A DNA stretch of 64,000 nt from Cobetia sp. cqz5-12 (lineage in GTDB: Bacteria > Pseudomonadota > Gammaproteobacteria > Pseudomonadales > Halomonadaceae). How positions within the stretch are numbered: the stretch's first letter is position 1; each line of letters begins with the position of its first letter. Below the pieces are notes generated by a model. That model saw only the letters and a program-made list of their open reading frames with translations. It searched no databases and had not been told where the DNA came from. Shown piece by piece: positions 22,705 through 35,967 of the stretch. Position numbers and translations under genes: made by a program. The DNA is taken from the NCBI RefSeq assembly GCF_016495405.1, contig NZ_CP044522.1, forward strand, positions 930,001 to 994,000, read 5' to 3'.

Positions 22705-22898
22705 GGGCTTCTCGTCTCTGCTTCCTTGTCATGGTCTTGAACGGGCTGGCGCTTACCCGCCGCATCATATCCGAAAGACATGACCCCTGCACGACGCCCG
22801 AATGCCACTGGGGGTGTCGTCCATCCCTGACAGGCCGCGCGCTACTCGCCGCCTGGCGGGCATGCTAGTCTGCTCGGGCTTCCGGATTGGAGAAACAG

Positions 22899-24341
22899 AT
22901 GCACCTTCACGTCATCGGTATTTGCGGTACCTTCATGGGCTCTCTGGCGCTGCTGGCGCGCGCGCGCGGTCATCGCGTCACGGGGAGCGATGCCAACGTC
23001 TATCCGCCCATGAGCACACAGCTGGCCGAGGCCGGTATCACCCTGATGGAGGGCTATGCGGCCGACAATCTCGTCCCCGCGCCTGACCTTACGGTGGTCG
23101 GCAATGCCGTCTCGCGCGGCAACCCCGAAGTCGAGACGCTGCTCGAGCGCGGCCTGGCCTACACCTCCGGCCCGCAATGGCTGTGTGACGAGGTGCTGAC
23201 CGGTCGTCCGGTGATCGCCATCGCCGGCACCCACGGCAAGACCACCACCGCGACCATGACTGCCTGGATTCTCGAATGTGCGGGTCGCACGCCGGGCTAT
23301 CTGATCGGTGGCGTGCCGCCGCAGCTGGGGGATTCCGCGCGTATCGGCGACCCGCAGGCGCCCTTCGTGGTTGAGGCCGATGAGTACGACACGGCCTTCT
23401 TCGACAAGCGCTCCAAGTTCGTGCATTACCGTCCGCGCATCGCCGTGCTCAACAATCTCGAGTTCGACCACGCCGACATCTTCCCGGATCTCGCCGCCAT
23501 CGAGCGTCAGTTCCACCATCTGGTGCGCACCGTGCCGGCTGGCGGCAAGCTGGTGGTCGCAGCGGACGCCGTCGCCGGTGCCGAGGCGCTGGAACGCGTG
23601 CTGGATCAAGGCTGCTGGACGCCGGTGGCGCGCTTCGGCGATGAGAGCGGTATCGAGAACGCCGGTGGCGACTGGCGCTATCGTCTGATCAGTGCCGATG
23701 GCAGCCACTTCGCGCTGGCGGCGCCGGCCGCCGTGTCCGGCGAGGCGGACCGCTTCGTCGAGTGCCAGTGGGCGATGCGCGGACGCCACAACGTGGCCAA
23801 TGCCTGTGCCGCGGTGGCCGCTGCCGTCGAGTGCGGCGTGAGTGTCGAGGCGGCGCTGCAGGCACTCGCGCGCTTCGCGCCGCCCAGGCGTCGGCAGGAG
23901 CTGCGCGGTGAGGTAGCGGGCGTCAAGGTCATCGATGACTTCGCGCACCACCCGACCGCCATCGCCACCACGCTCGAGGGCCTGGCGCCGGGCGTGGCGG
24001 CCGAAGGGCAAGGCGGTCGCCTGTGGGCGGTGATCGAACCGCGCTCCAATACCATGAAGCTTGGCACCATGAAGGCGCGTCTGCCGGCTTCGGTGACCGC
24101 GGCCGACCGCGTCAGCTGGTTCGCGGGCCCCAGCCTCGGCTGGTCATTGGACGAGACGGTCAGTGAGTGCCGCGCGCTCGGCGTGGAAGCTGAGGTGGAG
24201 CAGGACCTCGACGCCCTGATCGCGAAGATCGCCAATCAATCCCGCGCCGGCGACTGGGTGGTGGTGATGTCCAATGGCGGCTTCGGCGGTATTCACGAGC
24301 GCCTTCTGGCGGCGCTGGCAGCACGTGAAGGTGAAGCATGA
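22899..24341 (+). CDS. mpl: UDP-N-acetylmuramate:L-alanyl-gamma-D-glutamyl-meso-diaminopimelate ligase
   Basis: A 480-residue Mur-ligase-family enzyme that reattaches recycled murein tripeptide to UDP-MurNAc. N-terminal HVIGICGTFMGSLALLA, GSDANVYPPMSTQL, the ATP loop GTHGKTTTA, EADEYDTAFFDKRSKFVHY, NNLEFDHADIFPD and the late EPRSNTMKLG are all diagnostic of Mpl over MurC. The ATG at 22899 with GGAG at 22889-22892 is preferred to a TTG four codons upstream. The ubiX start overlaps the stop by 4 bp. The window also encodes nagZ, another murein recycling enzyme. Confidence 0.95.
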   Translation: MHLHVIGICGTFMGSLALLARARGHRVTGSDANVYPPMSTQLAEAGITLMEGYAADNLVPAPDLTVVGNAVSRGNPEVETLLERGLAYTSGPQWLCDEVLTGRPVIAIAGTHGKTTTATMTAWILECAGRTPGYLIGGVPPQLGDSARIGDPQAPFVVEADEYDTAFFDKRSKFVHYRPRIAVLNNLEFDHADIFPDLAAIERQFHHLVRTVPAGGKLVVAADAVAGAEALERVLDQGCWTPVARFGDESGIENAGGDWRYRLISADGSHFALAAPAAVSGEADRFVECQWAMRGRHNVANACAAVAAAVECGVSVEAALQALARFAPPRRRQELRGEVAGVKVIDDFAHHPTAIATTLEGLAPGVAAEGQGGRLWAVIEPRSNTMKLGTMKARLPASVTAADRVSWFAGPSLGWSLDETVSECRALGVEAEVEQDLDALIAKIANQSRAGDWVVVMSNGGFGGIHERLLAALAAREGEA

Positions 24342-24991
24342 AAGCGCAAGCGACAGCCCCTGAGGGCGAGTTCAAGTCGGCGGTTACCGTCGCGCTGACC
24401 GGGGCCTCCGGCGCCCAGTACGGCCTGCGCCTGATCGAGTGTCTGGTCGCGGCCGGTCATGAAGTGATGGTGATGGTCTCCAAGGCGGCGCACATGGTGA
24501 TCGCCACCGAGACCGATGAGGAGCTGCCGGCACGTCCGGCGCGCCTCGCCGAGGTGCTCACCCAGCGCTACGCCGCAAGGCCCGGTCAGATTCGTTGCTT
24601 CGGGCGCGAGGACTGGATGGCCCCGGTGGCCTCCGGCTCCGGCGCGCCGAGTGCCATGGTGGTGTGCCCGTGTTCCACCGGCTCGCTGTCCGCGATCGCG
24701 ACCGGGGCCAGCAACAACCTGATCGAGCGCGCCGCCGATGTGGCCCTCAAGGAGCGTCGCACGCTGATTCTGGTGCCGCGCGAGACACCGTTCTCGGCCA
24801 TTCACCTCGAGCATATGCTCACGCTGACGCGCATGGGCGCCGTCATCCTGCCCGCTGCGCCCGGTTTCTATCATCGCCCGCAGTCCCTCGATGACATGAT
24901 CGACTTCATCGTCGCACGCATTCTCAACCAGCTGGGTATCGCGCATGCGCTGATGCCGCGCTGGGGCGAGGGGCATGTCAGCGGCGATTGA
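24338..24991 (+). CDS. ubiX: Flavin prenyltransferase UbiX
   Basis: A 217-residue flavoprotein that makes prenylated FMN, the cofactor of the UbiD decarboxylase in ubiquinone synthesis. TGASGAQYGLRLIE at the N-terminus binds FMN. The central CSTGSLSAIATGASNNLIERAADV and PRETPFSAIHLEHM are family hallmarks. Coupled to mpl by an ATGA overlap, the same mpl-ubiX order as in Pseudomonas. The first 14 residues (KAQATAPEGEFKS) are a non-conserved extension. Confidence 0.94.
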   Translation: MKAQATAPEGEFKSAVTVALTGASGAQYGLRLIECLVAAGHEVMVMVSKAAHMVIATETDEELPARPARLAEVLTQRYAARPGQIRCFGREDWMAPVASGSGAPSAMVVCPCSTGSLSAIATGASNNLIERAADVALKERRTLILVPRETPFSAIHLEHMLTLTRMGAVILPAAPGFYHRPQSLDDMIDFIVARILNQLGIAHALMPRWGEGHVSGD

Positions 24992-25090
24992 AGGGCGATC
25001 GGTCGATCCGCTCAGGAGAGAGTTCGTCGGTGAGAGCTTGTCAGAGACATCCCTCTGGCACTGCATCAGATTGCGCAAGGAGAGCAGGGA

Positions 25091-25720
25091 ATGCTGAATT
25101 GGTCGTTGTTGTCGGTGTTCGTGCCGACGTTCTTTCTGGTCTCGCTGACACCGGGCATGTGCATGACGCTGGCGATGACCCTGGGCATGACCCAGGGCGT
25201 CAAGCGCACGCTGTGGATGATGGTGGGCGAACTGCTGGGCGTCGGGCTGGTGGCGGTGTCGGCGGTGATCGGCGTCGCGACCATCATGCTGCGCTATCCG
25301 ATGGTGTTCTCGGCCTTCAAGCTGGCGGGGGGCGCCTACCTAGCCTGGCTGGGGATCCAGATGTGGCGTTCACGTGGCCGCCTGGCCCTGGGGGTAGCAG
25401 GGGAGGATGCGACGGCACCGCGCGCCTCGCGCCGTGCATTGGCCGCACAGGGCTTCGTCACCGCGATTGCCAACCCCAAGGGCTGGGCGTTCTTCATCGC
25501 GCTGTTGCCGCCGTTTCTGGATGCCAGCCTGCCGCTGGCGCCGCAGCTGATCGCGCTGGTCGGCATCATCCTGACGCTGGAATTCACCTGCCTGCTGCTC
25601 TACGCCGGTGGTGGCAGCAGCCTGGCGCGCTGGCTGGGGCGGGGTTCGCGAGTGCGGCTGATGAACCGCGTGGCCGGCACGCTGATGATCGGCGTGGGCA
25701 TCTGGCTCGCGACCGGTTGA
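25091..25720 (+). CDS. LysE/RhtB family amino-acid exporter
   Basis: A 209-residue membrane protein with about six hydrophobic segments. The family pattern is clear: PGMCMTLAMTLGMTQGVKR near residue 20 and NPKGWAFFIALLPPF around 123-137. Substrates of such proteins (homoserine, threonine, leucine and others) cannot be told from sequence alone. Weak RBS AGCAGGGA. It follows ubiX after 99 bp and ends before a long hairpin shared with the convergent EamA gene. Confidence 0.85.
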   Translation: MLNWSLLSVFVPTFFLVSLTPGMCMTLAMTLGMTQGVKRTLWMMVGELLGVGLVAVSAVIGVATIMLRYPMVFSAFKLAGGAYLAWLGIQMWRSRGRLALGVAGEDATAPRASRRALAAQGFVTAIANPKGWAFFIALLPPFLDASLPLAPQLIALVGIILTLEFTCLLLYAGGGSSLARWLGRGSRVRLMNRVAGTLMIGVGIWLATG

Positions 25721-25754
25721 TGTCGGCATGACCGAGCGAAGAATGTCAGCTTGT

Positions 25755-25795
25755 GAACACACTCAGGCCCGCCAATGGCGGGCCTGAGTGTGTTC
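25755..25795. terminator. Long perfect hairpin between the LysE and EamA genes
   Basis: Perfect 19-bp arms (25755-25773 with 25777-25795) and a 3-nt loop. No T tract of note on either side, but its position between convergent genes fits a bidirectional terminator or 3'-end stabiliser. Confidence 0.7.
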
Positions 25796-25809
25796 AGGGG
25801 CGCGGTGCT

Positions 25810-25843
25810 GATTCAGCTGCGACTTCGGTTCAGCTGCGGCGCA
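25810..25843. repeat. Two 17-bp tandem copies spanning the EamA stop codon
   Basis: Units 25810-25826 and 25827-25843 share RTTCAGCTGCG. The EamA stop (TCA on the plus strand, 25830-25832) lies in the second unit, and the first unit sits just beyond the stop. Confidence 0.6.
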
Positions 25844-26708
25844 GGGTCTCAAGTGCTGCCGCCGCCACGATGAAGCTACCGCCGACCAGTGTCAGCCAGG
25901 TGGGCACCTCGCCGAGAATCAGCCACGCCAGCAATACGCCGTAGACGGGTTGCAGGCAGCCGATCATGCCGACGGTCTTGGCCTTGAGGCCACCGAGGGC
26001 AAAGGTCATCAGGGCATGCGGTGCTGCCGTGAAGACGATGGCCAGCACCAGCATGGCGATCCCCGTCGAGGGGCTGGCATCCATGATCTCGCCGGAGACG
26101 AATGGCAGCGTCAGCACCACGACGCCCAGCGCCTGCAGGCTCATCGATAGTACCGGGTTGAGGTGGCTGAGACGGTAGCGCACCAGCAGATTGCGCGCCG
26201 CGAACAACAGGCCCGAGAACACGCCCCATAACACCCCCGCCAGGCTGTCGCCCTGCGCGCTGCTGTCGCCGCCTGGGACAAGCAGCCAGATGCCGATGCA
26301 GACCAGCCCCGCTGCCGCCAGGTCCTTCGCTTTCAGGCGCGTGCCTTCCACCCATGGCTCCAGCAGCACGATGAAGATGGGGTAGGTGAACAGCGCCAGC
26401 ATGCCGGTGGCCACGGAAGACACCTGCATCGAGTGAAAGTAGCTCACCCAGTGCGCGGCCATCAGCGCGGCGGCGATGCCCAGCAAGAGCCAGTCACGCC
26501 CGCTCAGACGTAGCGAGACATGCCACTTCAGGCGTGCCAGCCACAGCAGGAACAGTCCCGCCAGCAGGCTGCGCCAGGTGGTGATGTCGAGCGCCGAGAG
26601 AGGCACGCCTTTCGAGAACAGCGCCGTACCGCCAAGCAGCGCGATGCCGAGATGAATCGACATCAGCGCCTGGGGCTGGTTGGAGGGAGGGGCAGCAGGG
26701 CCGGGCAT
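25830..26708 (-). CDS. EamA/DMT-family permease
   Basis: A 292-residue protein with about ten hydrophobic helices and two EamA repeats; the second begins at SLAGVLWGVFSGLLFAARN. Typical segments are ITTWRSLLAGLFLLWLARL, FTYPIFIVLLEP and GLKAKTVGMIGCLQPVYGVLLAWLILGE. Substrate not predictable. The ATG at 26708 (MPGPAAPP) has GAGG at 26714-26717 and is preferred to upstream in-frame starts. It lies downstream of the DedA-PAP2 gene on the same strand, with 123 bp between. Confidence 0.82.
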   Translation of the reverse strand: MPGPAAPPSNQPQALMSIHLGIALLGGTALFSKGVPLSALDITTWRSLLAGLFLLWLARLKWHVSLRLSGRDWLLLGIAAALMAAHWVSYFHSMQVSSVATGMLALFTYPIFIVLLEPWVEGTRLKAKDLAAAGLVCIGIWLLVPGGDSSAQGDSLAGVLWGVFSGLLFAARNLLVRYRLSHLNPVLSMSLQALGVVVLTLPFVSGEIMDASPSTGIAMLVLAIVFTAAPHALMTFALGGLKAKTVGMIGCLQPVYGVLLAWLILGEVPTWLTLVGGSFIVAAAALETLRRS

Positions 26709-26773
26709 GAGGTTCCTCGTCATCAGGGGGGAGTGATAAAGCCGCCATCTCAGGCGGCTCATCGGTTTACAGC

Positions 26774-26849
26774 GTTATCACGGTAACGTTATCGCGACGG
26801 CCTGAGCGGCAGCAGTCTGATCGCGACAGCCTATAGCGGCAGCCAGGCG
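26774..26849. repeat. Tandem duplications crossing the DedA-PAP2 stop codon
   Basis: Two 14-bp copies (26774-26787, 26788-26801) sharing GTTATC run into two 29-30 bp copies (26791-26819, 26820-26849) sharing ATCGCGAC-GCCT and GCGGCAGC. The gene's stop (CTA on the plus strand, 26831-26833) lies within the last copy. Confidence 0.65.
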
Positions 26850-28303
26850 AAGCGTGCCGTCAACAGCAACAGGCTCGCCATACTCAACCACAGCAGCGGG
26901 GCTGGCGAGTCGAGGGGGCGCGAGGGCTGACGCACGAAGGCGGGATAGCTGATGCGCACCAGTGCACAGACCAGCAGCCCCAGGCAGGCACCGCCCAGCA
27001 CATCGCTGAGGTAGTGGACGCCAAGCGTGATACGTGACAGGCCGACAAGCGTACAGGCGGCGATGGCCGCCCAGTAGATCCAGCGACGTCGTGAGGATGG
27101 CTGGCGCTCGGCAATGAAGGCGGCGGCCAATCCGAACACTGCCACGCTGCCGGCGGCATGGGCGCTAGGAAACGACATCGAGCCTTCCAGGAAGGCGGGG
27201 GTATCCGGGCGCGGGCGCTGGATCAGATGCTTGAGCACGGTATTGGCACTGGCGATCCCCAGCCAGGCGGCCGTCAGATGCAGCCACACCGCGTGGCGGC
27301 CCTTGAGCAGCAGCCACACCAGCCACGGAGCCACGAGCGCCGCCAGGCCGGTGCCATCGGCGAGGCGAGACAGCACCAGGCTTGCCTCGCGCAGCCAGTC
27401 CTGGGGCATCAGTGAGGCGAGGCTTGCGGCCAGCGAGGCGGCCACGCGGTCGATCCACCACGGCTCGGGATGGGCCAGCACCGCCAGGCTCATGGCGGGC
27501 ACGCTGATCACCGCGAAGATCAGCAGTGCCATCGAGGCGAGCGGGAATTCGCCCTCGGGGTCGGGATGACGCAGCTGCCACCACAGACGCCGCCCGGAGG
27601 GGCTGCGACGCATGCGGCGAGCCAGCCAATGATAGAGGCGGCCCTCGCGGCCCAGCTGGCGGCGCAGGAAGGAGAAGGCGAAGGCACAGGCGATCAGTCC
27701 GCTGGCCAGGCCGACCAGCAGGCCATCGGCCCCTTCCGGCAGGGTGAACAGTGACTGCCAGGTCTGGCCCAGCAGATAGCCCGGCAGCAGGTAGGCCGGT
27801 GCCCAGGCCAGTGCCGAGAGACCATTGACCAGGAAGAAGCGTGCCGGCGGCATGTCGAGCATGCCGGCGACCAGCGGGATGATCGGGCGCACCGGACCGA
27901 CGAAGCGTCCGAAGGCGATCGACCAGCTGCCGTGGCGATGAAAGAACTGCTGACCGTGCTCGATCCACTCGGGATGGCGCGAGAAAGGCCAGCGGCCGGG
28001 CAGTTGGTCGCGATAGCGGATGCCCAGCCAGAAACTCACGCCATCGCCGATGATGGCGCCCAGCGCACCGGCGGCCAGCAGTATCGGCAGCGAGAGTTCA
28101 AGATGGCCGGCCAGTGAGGCACCGGCGGTGAGAATGACCACGCCCGGCACCAATAAGCCGATGATGGCGAGAGATTCAAGCAGTGAGACCAGGCCGATGA
28201 CGGCGACAAGGGCTGCCGGGTGATCGCTCAGCGTGGTCATCAGGGTGTCGATCATCACGCTGGGGTTCAGCCAATGCAGCAGTGACGCAAGGGTGTCGCT
28301 CAT
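26831..28303 (-). CDS. DedA-PAP2 fusion: putative undecaprenyl-phosphate flippase/phosphatase
   Basis: A 490-residue polytopic protein. Residues 1-215 form a DedA/VTT domain: Glu43 in LLESLAIIGLLVPG, a GDGVSFWLG segment at 86-94 and the FGRFVGPVRPIIPLVAG motif at 131-147. Residues 255-490 are a PAP2 phosphatase with a complete site: K358-x6-RP(365-366), PSAH 379-382, and SR423-424-x5-His430-x3-Asp434. DedA proteins have been shown to flip undecaprenyl phosphate, and PAP2 enzymes such as PgpB dephosphorylate undecaprenyl diphosphate, so the fusion could do consecutive recycling steps (inference). The start overlaps the preceding gene by 4 bp. Confidence 0.87.
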   Translation of the reverse strand: MSDTLASLLHWLNPSVMIDTLMTTLSDHPAALVAVIGLVSLLESLAIIGLLVPGVVILTAGASLAGHLELSLPILLAAGALGAIIGDGVSFWLGIRYRDQLPGRWPFSRHPEWIEHGQQFFHRHGSWSIAFGRFVGPVRPIIPLVAGMLDMPPARFFLVNGLSALAWAPAYLLPGYLLGQTWQSLFTLPEGADGLLVGLASGLIACAFAFSFLRRQLGREGRLYHWLARRMRRSPSGRRLWWQLRHPDPEGEFPLASMALLIFAVISVPAMSLAVLAHPEPWWIDRVAASLAASLASLMPQDWLREASLVLSRLADGTGLAALVAPWLVWLLLKGRHAVWLHLTAAWLGIASANTVLKHLIQRPRPDTPAFLEGSMSFPSAHAAGSVAVFGLAAAFIAERQPSSRRRWIYWAAIAACTLVGLSRITLGVHYLSDVLGGACLGLLVCALVRISYPAFVRQPSRPLDSPAPLLWLSMASLLLLTARFAWLPL

Positions 28304-29259
28304 TCATTGAGATCCATCAGGGCAAGCTGGCTGGCCAGCAGGCGTTGCTCGAGTTTCTGGGTGGTGTCATCGGCCTTGTACGTCACCAGGCGTGCGCGGG
28401 CAATGATGGAGCCGGTTTCCGGCTGTGTGGCCGCTGCCAGCGCCGCGGTCAGGCGCTCACGCATGATCAGTGCTCCTGCCTCGCCGGTATTGGGCAGCAT
28501 CAGCCAGAAGGACGACTTGTCGCTGCGACACAGCAGGTCGCCCTGGCGCGAGACCTCCTGCATCACGTCGCAGGCCATCGCCAGGCACTCGACGCGCCGG
28601 TCTTCGCCGAACTGCTCGCCGAGCATGTCCAGTTGCGGCAGATAGACGACCAGAATGCTGAATGGTTGATCCAGTGCCCGTGCACGCGCTGCCTCACTGA
28701 TCAGTCGTTGCTGACCGGTGCGCGCATTGAAGGCATTGCATTCGGTTTCCTCGCTGGCGGTCAGGCTCATGACACCCGCCTGCAGGCTGTTGATGACGAA
28801 CGGCTGGCTGGCCACCAGCAGCAGACACAGGTAACGCAGTATCTCGCCGAAGTTGTCTTCCTGCTGACCCAATAGCCATAGCCAAAGTGGCGCCAGCACC
28901 AGATTGAGCAGCATCGCCGGTGCCAGGGGCAACAGCAGCAGTGTCAGCACGCTGGGCAGCCCCAGCCACAGCGACATGCCCGGATAGGTACCCGGCGCCT
29001 CGAGTGCCAGCATCAGATAGCTGGCGATCAGCGTCAGGTAGGAAGGCAGCGGCTGCTCATCATCGAGGTGATTGAGGCCGGCGGCAATCGCCATCAGCAG
29101 GGTAGCCAGCACGGGGGTCAGGATATGATCGAAATCGCCGACCAGATAGCGCCACAGGGCATAGGTGGCTATCACCGCGGCGGCCAGCAGCATGATCAGT
29201 GTCTTGCGATTGGCGAGTTCCCGACGCTCGCGATGGGCCAGACTGTGCAGAGGAGACAT
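28300..29259 (-). CDS. Membrane protein with degenerate GGDEF-like domain (B)
   Basis: A 319-residue protein. Five or six hydrophobic helices lie between residues 20 and 160, then a cytoplasmic domain at about 170-310 laid out like GGDEF: ARTGQQRLISEAARARALDQPFSILVVYLPQLD corresponds to the GGDEF N-terminal helix and first strand. The active-site turn reads RSDKSSF (245-251) where RxGGDEF is expected, so diguanylate cyclase activity is most unlikely. The middle gene of three: it overlaps the upstream gene by 1 bp (TGATG) and the downstream DedA-PAP2 gene by 4 bp (ATGA), implying translational coupling. Confidence 0.75.
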   Translation of the reverse strand: MSPLHSLAHRERRELANRKTLIMLLAAAVIATYALWRYLVGDFDHILTPVLATLLMAIAAGLNHLDDEQPLPSYLTLIASYLMLALEAPGTYPGMSLWLGLPSVLTLLLLPLAPAMLLNLVLAPLWLWLLGQQEDNFGEILRYLCLLLVASQPFVINSLQAGVMSLTASEETECNAFNARTGQQRLISEAARARALDQPFSILVVYLPQLDMLGEQFGEDRRVECLAMACDVMQEVSRQGDLLCRSDKSSFWLMLPNTGEAGALIMRERLTAALAAATQPETGSIIARARLVTYKADDTTQKLEQRLLASQLALMDLNE

Positions 29260-30284
29260 CAGTGATCATTCCCCCGTGACGGTGCCACGGCGATCTTGTC
29301 TGCCTCGCTGGCCTGTTTGAGGGTGCCTCGCCCGGCATCTGACGAGACGTTGTCTGTCGAGGTTTCGTCTGATGAGGCATCGGCAGGCTTGCGAGGCAGT
29401 GGCGCCAGCAGGGTGATCGGCTGCGGTTCATCACTCAAGTGGGCGCTGAGGCGCTTGAGGTCCAGCGCGCTGGGATCACTGTCGTTGAGGGGTTGCACGC
29501 GGGCACGGACCGGCATCGCGAGATGCTCGATCAACTGGCGACGGCGCAGACTTGTCATGCGCTCGCCGCGGGTGACCAGCAAGACGGCCAGTGCCCCGTC
29601 ATCGAGCTGGTAGCGGGTCTCATGCGGCAGCGCGGCACTGTCGAGGGTGTTCATCAGGCGACGGTTGGCCAGACGACCGGTCTTGACCGGTGCGAGCAGG
29701 ATCAATTCGATATGGATCTCCTCGCGATCGGCACGGGCAATTTCCCGCGGCAGGTCGCGCATCAGCTGGTATTGTGACCAGATCGCGCGGCTGGAATCAC
29801 GCCGGCCACGACGTTCCAGCTGCATCCAGACCTGCTGCTGGCGTCGCCCACCGATGGCACCGAGCGCCATCAGAGTCGCGGTGATGCCGATGCCCAGACT
29901 CAGCCAGTCGCTGCCCAGCTGGCTGAGCGCCAGCCAGGTGGTGACCAGTCCGATCAGTGCGCAGGCCGGGGCCAGCCAGCGCGGGCGCGGATAGAGCAGC
30001 AGGACGGCGAAGCCCCACAGCCACATCAGGTGCTGTTGCGGGGCCAGCAACACCAGTGCACTCATGATCAGCGCGACGCTGAGCATCACCAGCGTGCGGA
30101 ACCAGCGTAGGGTAAACAGCTCGTGGGCGAGAGAGACCACCAGCAACATCGTGCCGCCCACCGCCAGCAACAGGGCAGTGAGCGTCAGGCCGATACTGAT
30201 CTGTCGTGCCGCTTCCAGCAGCAGCAATACAGAGCCGAGCAGACAGACGAACTGACTGAGACGGACTTTGAACTTGATCTCCAT
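29259..30284 (-). CDS. Membrane protein with degenerate GGDEF-like domain (A)
   Basis: A 341-residue protein with the same plan as its downstream neighbour. Six hydrophobic segments (about 12-30, 33-52, 63-82, 86-98, 103-121, 126-145) are followed by a soluble domain at about 165-275 whose strand order (IHIELILLAPV, YQLDDGALAVLLVTRG) recalls a GGDEF core. No GGDEF, I-site RxxD or metal ligands can be recognised. The last 60 residues are Ser/Asp/Thr-rich and probably disordered. First gene of the three-gene operon, divergent from proA. The GGDEF assignment rests on layout and on the neighbour, so it is weaker than for protein B. Confidence 0.6.
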   Translation of the reverse strand: MEIKFKVRLSQFVCLLGSVLLLLEAARQISIGLTLTALLLAVGGTMLLVVSLAHELFTLRWFRTLVMLSVALIMSALVLLAPQQHLMWLWGFAVLLLYPRPRWLAPACALIGLVTTWLALSQLGSDWLSLGIGITATLMALGAIGGRRQQQVWMQLERRGRRDSSRAIWSQYQLMRDLPREIARADREEIHIELILLAPVKTGRLANRRLMNTLDSAALPHETRYQLDDGALAVLLVTRGERMTSLRRRQLIEHLAMPVRARVQPLNDSDPSALDLKRLSAHLSDEPQPITLLAPLPRKPADASSDETSTDNVSSDAGRGTLKQASEADKIAVAPSRGNDH

Positions 30285-30595
30285 GGTGACTTATATTGGC
30301 ACCTTTGCCGTGGATGGCGCGAAATCGGCCGAATTCCCTGGCCGAACGGTCTGTGACGTGGGCATTGCCGACACATTTGCAAGATGCGACGGTGCTCCGA
30401 TCATGCAACGTCGCCTGCAATAATGGCAGCATACCCCAAACGGCGAGTGACACTAGTGTCTACGCCTCCAAGGCCTATACGGCTGGCCTTCACATCAGGC
30501 CTTCACGTCAGGGCTTCATGGCGAAATGTCCCCCGCGGCGCGCGGCTGATGATGTAATGAGCACGTGGACACTGACAACCAGCGAGATTAGGCAC
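30285..30595. other. 311-bp divergent spacer upstream of proA, with 13-bp tandem repeats
   Basis: Promoters for the minus-strand operon and for proA must lie here, but no clear -35/-10 pair stands out. The notable item is a run of three 13-bp units at 30485-30497, 30498-30510 and 30511-30523 (GGCCTTCACRTCA type, the third diverged). Open reading continues upstream of the proA start but is not conserved. Confidence 0.55.
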
Positions 30596-31879
30596 ATGAG
30601 TGAGCAGGGCAAGCACGACACCACGGACGTCGTGGCGTACATGAATCGTCTGGGGCATGCAGCGCGCGCGGCAAGCGTCGTGATGCGTCGCGTCGACAGC
30701 GGCATCAAGAATCGTGCTCTGCAGACCATGGCGCGTCTGATCGATGAGCGTCGCGAGGCACTGGCAGAGGCCAACGCCGAGGACCTGACGCGTGCACGCG
30801 CCAATGGGCTATCGGAGGCGATGGTCGATCGTCTCGCGCTGACGCCGGCGCGTATCGACGGCATGATCGAGGGGCTCGAGCAGGTCGCGGCGCTGCCGGA
30901 CCCGGTCGGCGAGGTCGATGGTCTGCGCTCTCGTCCGAGCGGCATTCAGGTCGGCCACATGCGCGTGCCGCTGGGCGTGATCGGCATCATCTTCGAGTCA
31001 CGTCCCAACGTGACCATCGAGGCGGCCAGCCTGTGTCTGAAGTCCGGCAATGCCTGCATCCTGCGCGGTGGCTCCGAGGCCGCGTCCAGCAACCGTGCGC
31101 TGAGCGAGATCATCAGCGAGGCATTGGTGCTCTCCGGGCTGCCAGCCACGGCAGTCCAGGTCGTCGCCACCACGGACCGCGCCGCGGTCGGTGAGCTGAT
31201 CGCGATGCCCGAGTTCGTCGATGTCATCATCCCGCGCGGTGGCAAGAGCCTCATCTCGCGTATCTCGCGTGATGCGCGCGTGCCGGTCATCAAGCACCTC
31301 GATGGCATCTGTCACGTCTATATCGATGCCACGGCTGACCTGGCGATGGCGGTCCGGATCGCCGAGAACGCCAAGACCCACCGCTACGGCACCTGCAACA
31401 CCATGGAGACTTTACTGGTCGATGCGCCGGTTGCCGCCGAGGTCCTGCCGCGTATCGCCGAGCGTCTGGCGGCACATGAGGTCGAGATTCGCGGTTGCGA
31501 GCGCACCCGTGAAGTGCTGCCGCAGGCCGTGGCCGCCAGTGCGGAAGACTGGGATACCGAATATCTCGCGCCGATTCTGGCGATTCGTGTCGTGGATGGC
31601 GTGGATGAGGCGATGGCGCATATCGAGCGTCACAGCTCCGGGCATACCGAGGCCATCATCACCGAGAACTATGCGCTGGCGCGCCGCTTCATGGCGGAAG
31701 TCGATTCCAGCTCGGTGATGGTCAACGCCTCCACCCGCTTCGCCGATGGCTTCGAATATGGCCTGGGCGCCGAGATCGGCATCTCCACCGACAAGCTGCA
31801 TGCGCGTGGTCCGGTCGGGCTTGAGGGCCTGACGACCCGCAAGTACATCGTGTTCGGTGATGGGCAGATTCGCCAGTGA
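30596..31879 (+). CDS. proA: Gamma-glutamyl phosphate reductase
   Basis: A 427-residue NADPH-dependent enzyme for the second step of proline synthesis, and so of interest in an organism that may live in saline habitats. Visible family motifs: [52 protein letters not shown] and the catalytic Cys in [12 protein letters not shown]. The ATG at 30596 gives the usual N-terminus (about 417 residues in E. coli); its RBS is weak. proB is not adjacent. nadD starts with a GTG overlapping the stop. Confidence 0.94.
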
Positions 31880-32754
31880 AGGACCATGTCTCACCCGCCA
31901 AGGGGCAGGTCGCGCCCGAGCAGACCTTGACGAACGAGCAGGCCCTGTCGCCCGAGGCGCTGGAGGACACCCAGCGCCCCTTGAATGCCGATGGTCTCGC
32001 GCAGGAGCGTGAGGCCGTGCATCACGACACCGAGTCGGCACATGACTCGCGTTCAAGGACTGACACGGCAGCGGAGCCGAGCTTCGAGGGCTGTCTCGGC
32101 CCGGTGCCGCGTGTCGCCATGCTCGGCGGTACCTTCGATCCCATCCATCACGGCCATCTGCGCAGTGCCATCGAGCTGCGCGAAGCGCTGGGGCTGGACC
32201 ATGTACTGCTGGTTCCTTCGCATCAGCCGCCGCATCGCGCCGCGCCCGGCGTCAGCAGTGATCAGCGTCTGGCGATGCTGGAAGCCGCGATAGAGGGAGA
32301 GCCGGGTCTCAAGGCCGATGGGCGTGAGTTACTGCGCGATGGCCCCTCCTACAGTGCCGACACCCTGGCCAGTCTACGTGCCGAATATGGCCCGCAGGCG
32401 CGGCTGGTGATGGCGATCGGCCATGACGCCTTCCTCAAGCTCGGGGACTGGCATGCTGCCGATCGTCTGTTCGATGAAGCCCACGTGGTGGTGATCGAGC
32501 GGCCGGACCATGATGCACCGCTGCCCCGGGCGCTCGAAGCGCTGATCCAGGGGCGCGAGGTCGACTCGGTGGCGGCCTTGATGGCGCGTCCGGGCGGCCA
32601 CCTGTTGCGCCTGTCATTGCCGACGCGCATGGCCATCAGTGCCACCTTCGTGCGTGAGCGCCTCGCGCTGGGTGACAGCGTGCGCTACCTGTTGCCGGAA
32701 GCGGTGATCCGTCATATCGAGGCGCATGGCCTCTATTGTCCGTCCTCGTCCTGA
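31876..32754 (+). CDS. nadD: Nicotinate-nucleotide adenylyltransferase with long N-terminal extension
   Basis: A 292-residue reading; the enzyme core of about 217 residues begins at [19 protein letters not shown] (nucleotidyltransferase HxGH-type motif) and ends with [16 protein letters not shown] (ISxTxxR motif). It adenylates NaMN to deamido-NAD. The GTG start overlaps the proA stop by 4 bp (GTGA), and no good alternative start lies between it and the core. The first 74 residues are acidic, Glu/Thr/Ala-rich, low in hydrophobics and probably disordered. The same proA-nadD-rsfS-rlmH-mrdA order is found in Pseudomonas. Confidence 0.88.
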
Positions 32755-32762
32755 AGTGTCCG

Positions 32763-32830
32763 TCATCGACCTGAGCCCGTAATCGAACTGAACCCATCAC
32801 TGAGCTGAGCCCATCATCAAGCTGGGCGTT
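32763..32830. repeat. Four imperfect 17-bp tandem repeats downstream of nadD
   Basis: Units begin at 32763, 32780, 32797 and 32814, with consensus near TCATCGARCTGAGCCCA; a weaker copy may begin at 32746 and include the nadD stop. The array occupies the first part of the 251-bp nadD-rsfS spacer. A TAGAAT hexamer, a possible -10, is further on at about 32969. Confidence 0.8.
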
Positions 32831-33005
32831 GTGGCTCTGAACGTCATGTCGCGTGCGAGCGTGGCATCATGAGAAGGTGCGCCGGCGCAGTGATCCCGCA
32901 TCGCCGTGCGTGGCGCCACTTTGGCGAGTAAATGACGATGCCCATAGGCGCGCGCATCGCCAACGGGTAGAATGCGCCCCCTGCCGAACAAACTCCCGAG
33001 GAATC

Positions 33006-33365
33006 ATGCAGACCGAAGCTCTTAAAAACCTGGTTGTCGACGCCCTTGAAGAACTCAAGGCCCAGGAAATCAGCGAGATCAATGTCTCCAAGCTGACCAG
33101 CGTCACCGATGTGATGGTGATCGCGACCGGTACGTCCAGCCGCCATATCTCCGCGTTGGCCAACAACGTGCAGGTCACCGTGAAAGAAGCCGGCGTCAAG
33201 CCGCTGGGCTGTGAAGGTGACAACGGTTCCGACTGGGTGCTGCTGGATCTGGGCGATGTCGTCGTCCACGTCATGCTGGCCGAAACCCGTGCCCTGTACG
33301 ACCTCGAGCGCCTGTGGAGCGATCTGCCCCGCGAAACGCGTGAAGAGTACGAGCAGAGCCATTGA
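33006..33365 (+). CDS. rsfS: Ribosome silencing factor RsfS
   Basis: A 119-residue protein of the YbeB/Iojap family that binds L14 and blocks subunit joining on starvation. The [34 protein letters not shown] block and the C-terminal [31 protein letters not shown] are nearly invariant family segments. Start ATG 33006 with GAGG just upstream. It begins the conserved rsfS-rlmH-mrdA-rodA cluster. Confidence 0.95.
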
Positions 33366-33510
33366 TCCTGCCAGCCTGACCCGACGGGTTGCTCGTCGGG
33401 GCATGCCAACCGCGCGTTGTGTCCTTGCCGGTCGCGATGTCGCGGGCAGGGAGTATCCGATGGAAGGACCGCGGGCTTGCCCGTCGTTCTGACACAGCAC
33501 GGGACAGGAC

Positions 33511-33978
33511 ATGAAGATCCGAGTTTTGGCGGTCGGGCAGAAGATGCCGGACTGGGTGGAGAAGGGTAGCCGGGAATATCTCAAGCGCATGCCGCGGGAT
33601 TTTTCGCTTGAGTTCATCGAGCTGGCGCCCGGCAATCGCGGCAAGAATGCGGACATCGCCCGTGCCATGGCCAGTGAAGGCGATCGGATGCTTGAAAAAC
33701 TCAAGGGAAATGAACATGTTGTCGCCCTTGATGTCCTAGGTAAGGCCTGGAGTACCGAGCAGCTTGCCCAGCATGCCGATGATTGGCGGCTGGGAGGGCG
33801 AGACGTGGCCATCCTCATCGGTGGTCCGGATGGGCTCGACCCACGCCTGCTGGCACGTGCCGATCAGCGCTGGTCGCTCTCGGCACTGACGCTGCCGCAC
33901 CCCCTGGTGCGCATCGTGCTGGCGGAACAGCTTTACCGCGCCTGGACATTGCTGGTCGGGCACCCCTATCACCGGTAA
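33511..33978 (+). CDS. rlmH: 23S rRNA (pseudouridine1915-N3)-methyltransferase
   Basis: A 155-residue SPOUT methyltransferase, the same length as E. coli Rlm[17 protein letters not shown] opens the protein. The SAM-binding knot is seen in [25 protein letters not shown]-type [10 protein letters not shown] and the C-terminal [24 protein letters not shown]. It follows rsfS after 145 bp and precedes mrdA by 42 bp. Confidence 0.96.
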
Positions 33979-34020
33979 GCGCCTGCCGCTTGCGACACGA
34001 CACTGGTTGCGAGACCCGCC

Positions 34021-35967
34021 ATGCGCCAACGCCGGGCGACGATAAAGAATCCTCAACAGGAAGTGCGGATCTTTCGCCTTCGCAGCATCGTGGCTGCCGG
34101 CCTTGTGCTGGTGCTGGCCGGGTGTCTGCTGGCGCGGCTGCTCTTCCTGCAGGTCGTGGAACACGACATCTATACGACGCGCTCGGACAAGAACCGTGTG
34201 CGTGTCGAGCCCTTGCCGCCTACGCGCGGCTTGATCTATGACCGCAATGGTCAGCTGCTCGCCGAAAACCGCCCCAACTACAATCTCACCATCGTGCGCG
34301 AACGCGCCGGTGATCTCGAGACGACGCTTGAGCGCCTGGTCGAGATTCTCGATCTGCCGCCCGATGAAGTCGAAGACTTCAAGGAACGCTCGCGTCAGCG
34401 TCAACGTCCCTATCAGCCCGCCCTGTTGATGAGTGAGTTGAGTCAGGAGCAGATCGCGCGTCTGGCCGTCAATCGCTATCGTCTGCCTGGCGTCGAGGTC
34501 GAGGCGCAGCTGCTGCGCTACTACCCGGATGCCAAGCCGTTGTCGCATACCCTGGGGTATGTGGGGCGCATCAATCAGGCTGAGCTCAAGACCCTCGACA
34601 AGGGCAACTATTCGGGCACCCACTTCATCGGCAAGACCGGTATCGAGCGCTTCTATGAAGAGGCGCTGCACGGTCAGGCGGGCCTGCGCAAGGTGGAAAC
34701 CAATGCGCGGGGTCGCGTGCTGCGTGAGCTGTCGCGGATCGATCCGGTGCCGGGCAAGGACCTGACGCTGACCATCGACCGCGGTCTGCAGGATCTCGCC
34801 TATCGGCTGCTCAAGGGGCGACGTGGTGCCATCGTGGCCATCGAGCCCGAGACGGGCGACATTCTGGCGATGGCCTCCGTGCCGGGCTTCAACTCCAACG
34901 AGTTCGTCACCGGCATCAGCGTCAAGAGCTATCGCGCGCTGCAGAATGATATCGACCTGCCGCTGTTCAACCGTGCCATTCGCGGCCAGTACCCGCCAGC
35001 CTCGACCGTGAAGCCCTTCATGTCGCTGGCAGGGCTGGAGAACGGTGCCATCACCACCAACACCACCTTCTACGATCCCGGCTATTTCCAGCTGCCCAAT
35101 GACAGCCACAAGTATCGCAACTGGCTGCGCTGGGGGCATGGGCGCGTCAACATGCGGCGTGGCATTGCGGTGTCCAATGACACCTTCTTCTACAACGTTG
35201 CCTACCGTCTGGGGATCGATCGCATCAGCGAGTACATGCACAAGTTCGGCTTCGGTGAGCAGACGGCGCTGGACGTGCAGGGTGCGCTGCCCGGCCTGAT
35301 GCCGTCCAAGGAATGGAAGCGCAATCGCTACGACAAGCCCTGGTACCCCGGCGAGACCATCTCCATCGGTATCGGTCAGGGCTACTGGCTTGCCACGCCG
35401 TTGCAGCTCGCCTCGGCGGAGGCCGTGCTGGCCAATCGTGGCCGACACGTGACGCCTCACCTGGCCAAGCGCATCGGTGACGAGACGGTGTTGCTGCCCC
35501 GAAGCGAGGAAAAGCCGGATGTAGTGCTGGACAACCCGGCGTGGTGGGACGATGTCATCGCCGCGCTCGAGGACGTGGTCAGCGGGCGAGAAGGTACGGC
35601 GCGCAAGTATGTCGGCCCCGGGCTCAAGTATCGCATGGCCGGCAAGTCCGGTACCGCGCAGGTCTTCACCCTCGGTCAGGACCAGAAATACAACGGCAAG
35701 GAGCTCGCGGAGCGTCTGCGAGACCACGCCCTGTTCGCCGCCTTTGCGCCGGTCGAGCACCCGGAAATAGCCGTTTCCGTGGTGATCGAGAACGGTCAGG
35801 GTGGCAGCTCCGTGGCAGGTCCGATGGCGCGCGCCGTCACCGATTACTGGCTGTTGCCGCGCATTGATCCCGAGGCGCGTGAGGCGGCGCTCACGCTGGC
35901 TGCCGCTCTGGCACCCCCGGAGGTACCGGCGGGCGAGGGTGAGCAAGGAGAGAATGATGCCGACTGA
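34021..35967 (+). CDS. mrdA: Penicillin-binding protein 2, elongasome transpeptidase
   Basis: A 648-residue class B PBP that crosslinks murein during cell elongation with RodA. One N-terminal membrane helix (about 23-45), a dimerisation/pedestal domain, and the transpeptidase domain. Catalytic motifs: Ser328-TV-Lys331, Ser385-Asn386-Asp387 and Lys542-Ser-Gly-Thr545. Length is near E. coli MrdA (633). It overlaps the rodA start by 11 bp. Ends in an acidic Ala/Gly/Glu tail. Confidence 0.96.
   Translation: MRQRRATIKNPQQEVRIFRLRSIVAAGLVLVLAGCLLARLLFLQVVEHDIYTTRSDKNRVRVEPLPPTRGLIYDRNGQLLAENRPNYNLTIVRERAGDLETTLERLVEILDLPPDEVEDFKERSRQRQRPYQPALLMSELSQEQIARLAVNRYRLPGVEVEAQLLRYYPDAKPLSHTLGYVGRINQAELKTLDKGNYSGTHFIGKTGIERFYEEALHGQAGLRKVETNARGRVLRELSRIDPVPGKDLTLTIDRGLQDLAYRLLKGRRGAIVAIEPETGDILAMASVPGFNSNEFVTGISVKSYRALQNDIDLPLFNRAIRGQYPPASTVKPFMSLAGLENGAITTNTTFYDPGYFQLPNDSHKYRNWLRWGHGRVNMRRGIAVSNDTFFYNVAYRLGIDRISEYMHKFGFGEQTALDVQGALPGLMPSKEWKRNRYDKPWYPGETISIGIGQGYWLATPLQLASAEAVLANRGRHVTPHLAKRIGDETVLLPRSEEKPDVVLDNPAWWDDVIAALEDVVSGREGTARKYVGPGLKYRMAGKSGTAQVFTLGQDQKYNGKELAERLRDHALFAAFAPVEHPEIAVSVVIENGQGGSSVAGPMARAVTDYWLLPRIDPEAREAALTLAAALAPPEVPAGEGEQGENDAD

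Follow-up and report, generated by a model that had tools for sequence, protein, structure and literature searches.

Gene Organization of the Locus

The 64,000-nucleotide stretch of Cobetia sp. cqz5-12 analyzed here (contig NZ_CP044522.1, positions 930,001 to 994,000, referred to as the window) carries on its minus strand three consecutive genes for membrane proteins, named P1 (29259..30284, 341 aa), P2 (28300..29259, 319 aa), and P3 (26831..28303, 490 aa). P1 and P2 each contain a degenerate GGDEF domain, and P3 is a fusion of a DedA domain with a PAP2 phosphatase. All three were called as open reading frames, with further support from Pfam for P2 and from both Pfam and motifs for P3. Neighboring genes overlap by 1 bp (P1/P2, TGATG) and 4 bp (P2/P3, ATGA), exactly as reported in a preliminary description made from the sequence alone. 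The central observation is that P2 has lost its catalytic motif while keeping a complete inhibitory site (I-site) for cyclic di-GMP (c-di-GMP).

Comparison with Cobetia crustatorum gave ratios of nonsynonymous to synonymous substitution of 0.12, 0.08, and 0.08 for P1, P2, and P3, respectively, indicating that all three genes are maintained under purifying selection. P2 has an exact match in Cobetia amphilecti N-80 and shares 85% identity with its counterpart in C. crustatorum.

GGDEF Fold and Common Origin of P1 and P2

The GGDEF-fold domain of P2 comprises residues 178-319 (28303..28728, minus strand) and was recognized by Pfam (E 8.8e-10), by comparison of the P2 family profile with solved cyclases in the PDB (1e-20), and by a Foldseek match of the P2 model to the GGDEF fold (2.9e-7). 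An orthologue of P2 from other families of the order matched Pfam GGDEF at 1.7e-19, and some relatives of P2 show a weak resemblance to MASE6.

The assignment of P1 is less direct, and had been named the weakest link of the preliminary description. P1 alone matched no family in Pfam or NCBIfam, and a search of its profile against PDB sequences returned nothing relevant. The profile of P1, however, matched that of P2 over 264 columns with 97% probability, and P1 orthologues from other families of the order matched Pfam GGDEF at 2.1e-16 and 7.5e-10. VIA-align of the P1 model placed GGDEF-containing entries, PelD among them, in the first 49 of the 50 listed positions, the best match (Z 10.8, root-mean-square deviation 3.2 over 123 residues) being obtained with a low-confidence model. 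The domain so delimited in P1 spans residues 160-293 (29406..29807, minus strand). The AlphaFold models of the two proteins were each built from three near-identical sequences, had predicted local distance difference test (pLDDT) scores of 56 and 50, and served solely to compare the folds of the cytoplasmic domains. Together with hydropathy, these low-confidence models indicate approximately six membrane helices ahead of the GGDEF domain in both proteins. At its C-terminus, Cobetia P1 carries an extension of about 45 residues (29259-29400), which most relatives lack and which is poorly kept within the genus.

A joint tree of 54 P1 and 52 P2 sequences resolved two fully separate clades with a support of 0.994, which places the duplication before the divergence of the families sampled. 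Sequence and profile comparisons thus show P1 and P2 to be GGDEF-derived paralogues devoid of the catalytic motif. The earlier view of two polytopic proteins with GGDEF-like cytoplasmic domains and no active site is borne out by sequence, profile, and model comparisons alike. GGDEF domains were the top matches in the structural comparison, so that the fold, far from being absent, was also favored for P1.

An Intact PleD-Type I-Site in P2 and Partner-Side Arginines in P1

In P2 the RxGGDEF active site is replaced by RSDKSSF (28507..28527, minus strand), and none of the 52 P2 sequences, drawn from four bacterial families, retains a GG(D/E)EF motif. The I-site has fared differently. In the cyclase PleD, this site is formed by R359, D362, and R390 of one subunit and R313 of its neighbor (PMC7288161). 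Alignment with PleD, whose sequence was checked against 1W25, places the corresponding P2 residues at R238, D241, R269, and R192. The RxxD motif R238-Q-G-D241 (28537..28548) is invariant (52/52), as is R192 at the secondary I-site position (28684..28686, 52/52), and R269 (28453..28455) is kept in 50 of the 52, all on the minus strand. The whole PleD-type quartet is therefore present in 50/52 P2 sequences, compared with only 1 of the 22 catalytic GGDEF domains of the same genome, 11 of which carry RxxD. Degenerate GGDEF domains with RxxD are known to bind c-di-GMP in PelD and BcsE (PMC2170427, PMC7439463), and by the sequence criteria of such receptors (RxxD combined with a lost active site, plus equivalents of R390 and R313) P2 fits the same type. 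Since the I-site is kept while the GTP-site motif is lost, c-di-GMP is the most likely ligand, and P2 is probably a c-di-GMP receptor.

P1 is as degenerate as P2 at the GG(D/E)EF motif and has lost more of its I-site, RxxD being present in 17/54 sequences, kept in other families but mostly lost within the Halomonas family. The partner-side arginines that complete the site from the neighboring subunit have been located at R313 in PleD and R163 in DgcR (PMC8041772). P1 residues R184 and R187, which match both of these published secondary I-site positions, are each arginine in 53/54 sequences. The simplest reading of partner-side arginines in P1 and a primary site in P2 would have P2 bind c-di-GMP and P1 contribute to clamping the ligand. 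The pair may accordingly form a heterodimer that acts as a c-di-GMP receptor in the manner of PelD and BcsE, a tentative proposal drawn from residue conservation.

The DedA-PAP2 Fusion Protein P3

Both domains of P3 were confirmed by Pfam (VTT/DedA 4e-18, PAP2 2e-20), in agreement with the earlier assignment of a DedA domain joined to a PAP2 phosphatase with a complete catalytic set. The PAP2 domain (26942..27262, minus strand) contains all three motifs, KxxxxxxRP, PSxH, and SRxxxxxHxxxD, as KHLIQRPRP, PSAH, and SRITLGVHYLSD. Among solved structures, its nearest relative is B. subtilis YodM/PgpB, which carries the annotation phosphatidylglycerophosphate phosphatase. In the DedA part (VTT/DedA span, residues 52-176, 27776..28150, minus strand), the arginine pair of the second re-entrant helix is present, R133 and R139 being equivalent to Arg130 and Arg136 of YghB. 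The acidic pair of the first re-entrant helix is incomplete: E43, just upstream of the Pfam span, corresponds to YghB Glu39, whereas Asp51 is replaced by V55 (28139..28141, minus strand), and no acidic residue occupies this position in any of the 48 P3 relatives aligned. COG0586 flippases have been reported to conserve both acidic residues and to require them (PMC10127716). The preliminary description had recognized the genes and their domains correctly, but had overlooked both this loss in P3 and the intact I-site of P2.

A role in lipid handling is likely for P3. That its substrate is undecaprenyl phosphate (Und-P) is doubtful. DUF368, the other Und-P flippase family, is encoded in 148 of 151 genomes of the Halomonas family, including that of Cobetia sp. 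cqz5-12, which rules out P3 as the sole Und-P flippase candidate of this genome. BacA and two other PAP2 proteins are also encoded there. A second PAP2 gene (244 aa), outside the window (G000:C1:293494-294631), has a GGEEF cyclase gene as a neighbor, about 300 bp away and on the opposite strand.

Distribution Across Genomes

In the survey of the 151 family genomes, all three genes lie side by side in 105, so that the set is far from the rarely conserved grouping that would have spoken against it. The remainder comprise 13 genomes with P1-P2 only, 7 with P2-P3 and P1 undetected, 20 with P3 only, 5 in which only P2 was detected, and 1 with none; divergent P1 genes, such as those of L101 and L102, score below the threshold, which makes the P1 counts minimum estimates. 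Any two members found in one genome are direct neighbors with the same orientation, P1-P2 in 118/118 genomes and P2-P3 in 112/112, and such unbroken linkage implies a non-random arrangement. At 37 of the 56 distinct P2 junctions examined, the P2 stop codon overlaps an in-frame start by 4 bp.

The set of the window (22887-35967) lies between mpl-ubiX and proA-nadD-rsfS-rlmH-pbp2, an order kept in several families of the order, and the pair and the fusion have each been gained or lost at this single site. Three more families carry the P1-P2 pair at the same site and divergent from proA-nadD-rsfS-rlmH-pbp2; two of them have the DedA-PAP2 fusion there as well, and the third does not. In this third family an unfused DedA gene lies directly downstream of the pair (L164), lies further along (L158, L166), or was undetected nearby. 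An opposite-strand gene for an LCM-type methyltransferase and a gene for a DUF3549 protein surround the unfused DedA gene in one of these loci (L158:7710-10730). In still other families, the fusion occupies the proA locus without the pair; the fusion is hence probably the older resident, with the pair added later or repeatedly lost. At least one P3 relative (L021, G113:C25:81492-85376) has lost all three PAP2 motifs, retains intact DedA motifs, and still adjoins P2. This loss, together with the unfused DedA gene beside the pair in one family, hints that the DedA part is the more important to the pair.

The number of GGDEF genes per genome has a median of 22 in genomes without the pair and 29 in those with it (p 5e-5, uncorrected for relatedness), and the only genome with zero GGDEF matches lacks the pair and keeps P3. 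The lower number in genomes without the pair fits a c-di-GMP-dependent pair and a P3 able to work alone. A genome with few GGDEF genes carries a decayed set (G145:C1:2079585-2081017), in which P1 has three in-frame stops, P2 is split over frames, and P3 has no full-length match.

In the window, an EamA-family transporter gene, assigned by family match, follows P3 after 68 bp (25830..26762, minus strand). A locus comparison found such a gene downstream of P2 or P3 in several relatives as well, so that it may be a fourth member of the set. A promoter scan of the region gave 2 promoter-like matches against 0.7 expected, a weak one of them lying upstream on the minus strand, and terminator and RNA-family scans found none.

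Proposed Mechanism and Alternatives

The best explanation of these data, put forward tentatively, is that a c-di-GMP-dependent P1-P2 pair acts on P3. Briefly, P1 and P2 go back to an old tandem duplication of one GGDEF protein anchored in the membrane, and both lost the catalytic motif, as their sequences show. P2, with its complete inhibitory site, would bind c-di-GMP; in the Halomonas family, where P1 mostly lacks the primary RxxD site but has the neighbor-subunit arginines, the nucleotide would clamp P2 to P1. The c-di-GMP-dependent state of the pair would then alter the activity, assembly, or location of P3 in the inner membrane, such that P3 would dephosphorylate and/or flip a phospholipid or polyprenyl phosphate in step with whether the cell is sessile or motile. 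Because the genes of the pair are translationally coupled to P3, a change in P3 is the most likely consequence of a change in the pair, and control of P3 by P1-P2 is accordingly a possibility that we infer with some reserve. A stricter form, in which an asymmetric receptor with the primary site in P2 and only partner-side arginines in P1 directly gates the lipid phosphatase/flippase, is unlikely.

Several observations weigh against this explanation. The structural models of P1 and P2 are of low confidence, RxxD can serve structural roles, and the sequences compared share ancestry. Genus membership confounds the link between the pair and GGDEF number, and three genomes with at most 8 GGDEF candidates keep the whole set. 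Finally, the presence of P1-P2 and that of P3 are uncorrelated across the family genomes: both occur in 112, with 113.6 expected, 18 carry P1-P2 but lack P3, and 20 show the converse. Co-occurrence is thus no higher than chance, and the earlier suggestion that the pair senses or controls the process carried out by P3 is not established.

The same genomes, in which the pair persists beside proA without P3 or P3 without the pair, favor the alternative that P1-P2 is a c-di-GMP receptor acting elsewhere, for example on the cell-elongation neighbors or an exopolysaccharide machine, and that P3 is a neighbor by shared locus ancestry. The flanking mpl and pbp2 genes and the presence of the fusion at the proA locus in families without the pair, which may have joined an existing locus, agree with this alternative. 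Recurrence of the 4-bp P2/P3 overlap in separate families and the finding that P2 and P3 are never apart where both occur argue against it, and it is considered somewhat unlikely.

Regulation by the pair of undecaprenyl-phosphate/diphosphate recycling through P3, the model of the preliminary description, has become quite unlikely. The COG0586-type DedA domain with its phosphate-binding arginine pair and E43, the complete PAP2 motifs, and the position of the locus amid peptidoglycan genes would suit such a role, and a DedA-PAP2 fusion has been proposed to couple undecaprenyl diphosphate dephosphorylation with flipping (PMC10127716). It is weakened, however, by the missing Asp51 equivalent, by near-universal DUF368, and by the finding that the P. 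aeruginosa fusion PA4011, whose function was called elusive, does not replace the flippase PA4029 (PMC12893004). The additional BacA and PAP2 proteins and the annotation of YodM/PgpB point the same way. Least probable is a protein-scaffolding role in which the degenerate domains would recognize GTP, some other nucleotide, or no ligand at all. Degenerate GGDEF domains sensing GTP or hydrolyzing ATP are known (PMC7288161), and the primary I-site of P1 is missing in most of the family, but P2 keeps its I-site residues and has lost the GTP-site motif.

Comparison with Known Systems

c-di-GMP is a known controller of polysaccharide synthases. The literature searched yielded no link of c-di-GMP to those DedA and PAP2 family proteins that recycle lipid carriers or handle phospholipids, and no description of a paralogous degenerate-GGDEF pair coupled to a DedA-PAP2 fusion was found, in line with the earlier remark that the combination is not a recognized system. 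The receptor-like pair coupled to DedA-PAP2 makes such a link testable and, if the proposed mechanism is true, would provide a route for c-di-GMP control of lipid-carrier or phospholipid turnover. Conservation of the set suggests that turnover of membrane lipids or lipid carriers may be tuned by c-di-GMP in Halomonas-group marine bacteria and some relatives. The set also gives a context to DedA-PAP2 fusions, which the Asp51 position may separate from Und-P flippases.

The closest parallel is PelD of the Pseudomonas aeruginosa Pel system, which like P2 is an inner membrane protein with a dead GGDEF domain and an RxxD-type c-di-GMP site plus a further arginine, and whose operon also encodes the process under its control (PMC2170427). 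PelD differs in having four transmembrane helices and in serving exopolysaccharide secretion, whereas here a tandem pair is tied to a DedA-PAP2 protein; Pfam PelD_GGDEF matched only 1 of 35 P2 members, at E 0.036, which places P2 outside the PelD family proper. BcsE of Escherichia coli cellulose secretion likewise has a degenerate GGDEF domain whose RxxD I-site binds c-di-GMP together with a partner protein (PMC7439463), but it is cytosolic, carries a degenerate receiver domain, binds BcsQ, and belongs to another operon. The cyclases PleD, WspR, and DgcR share the fold and the I-site residues, including the neighbor-subunit arginine, but are active enzymes with the GG(D/E)EF motif that P1 and P2 lack. 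PA4011 and other COG0586 DedA-PAP2 fusions have the same fusion as P3, with the same domain order and a similar length (PMC12893004, PMC10127716); a GGDEF pair has not been described with PA4011, and neither P3 nor any relative examined has the second acidic residue of YghB. Taken together, degenerate GGDEF receptors in membrane operons are already known from PelD and BcsE, and by this comparison the coupling of a GGDEF-derived pair to a DedA-PAP2 fusion appears to be the new part.

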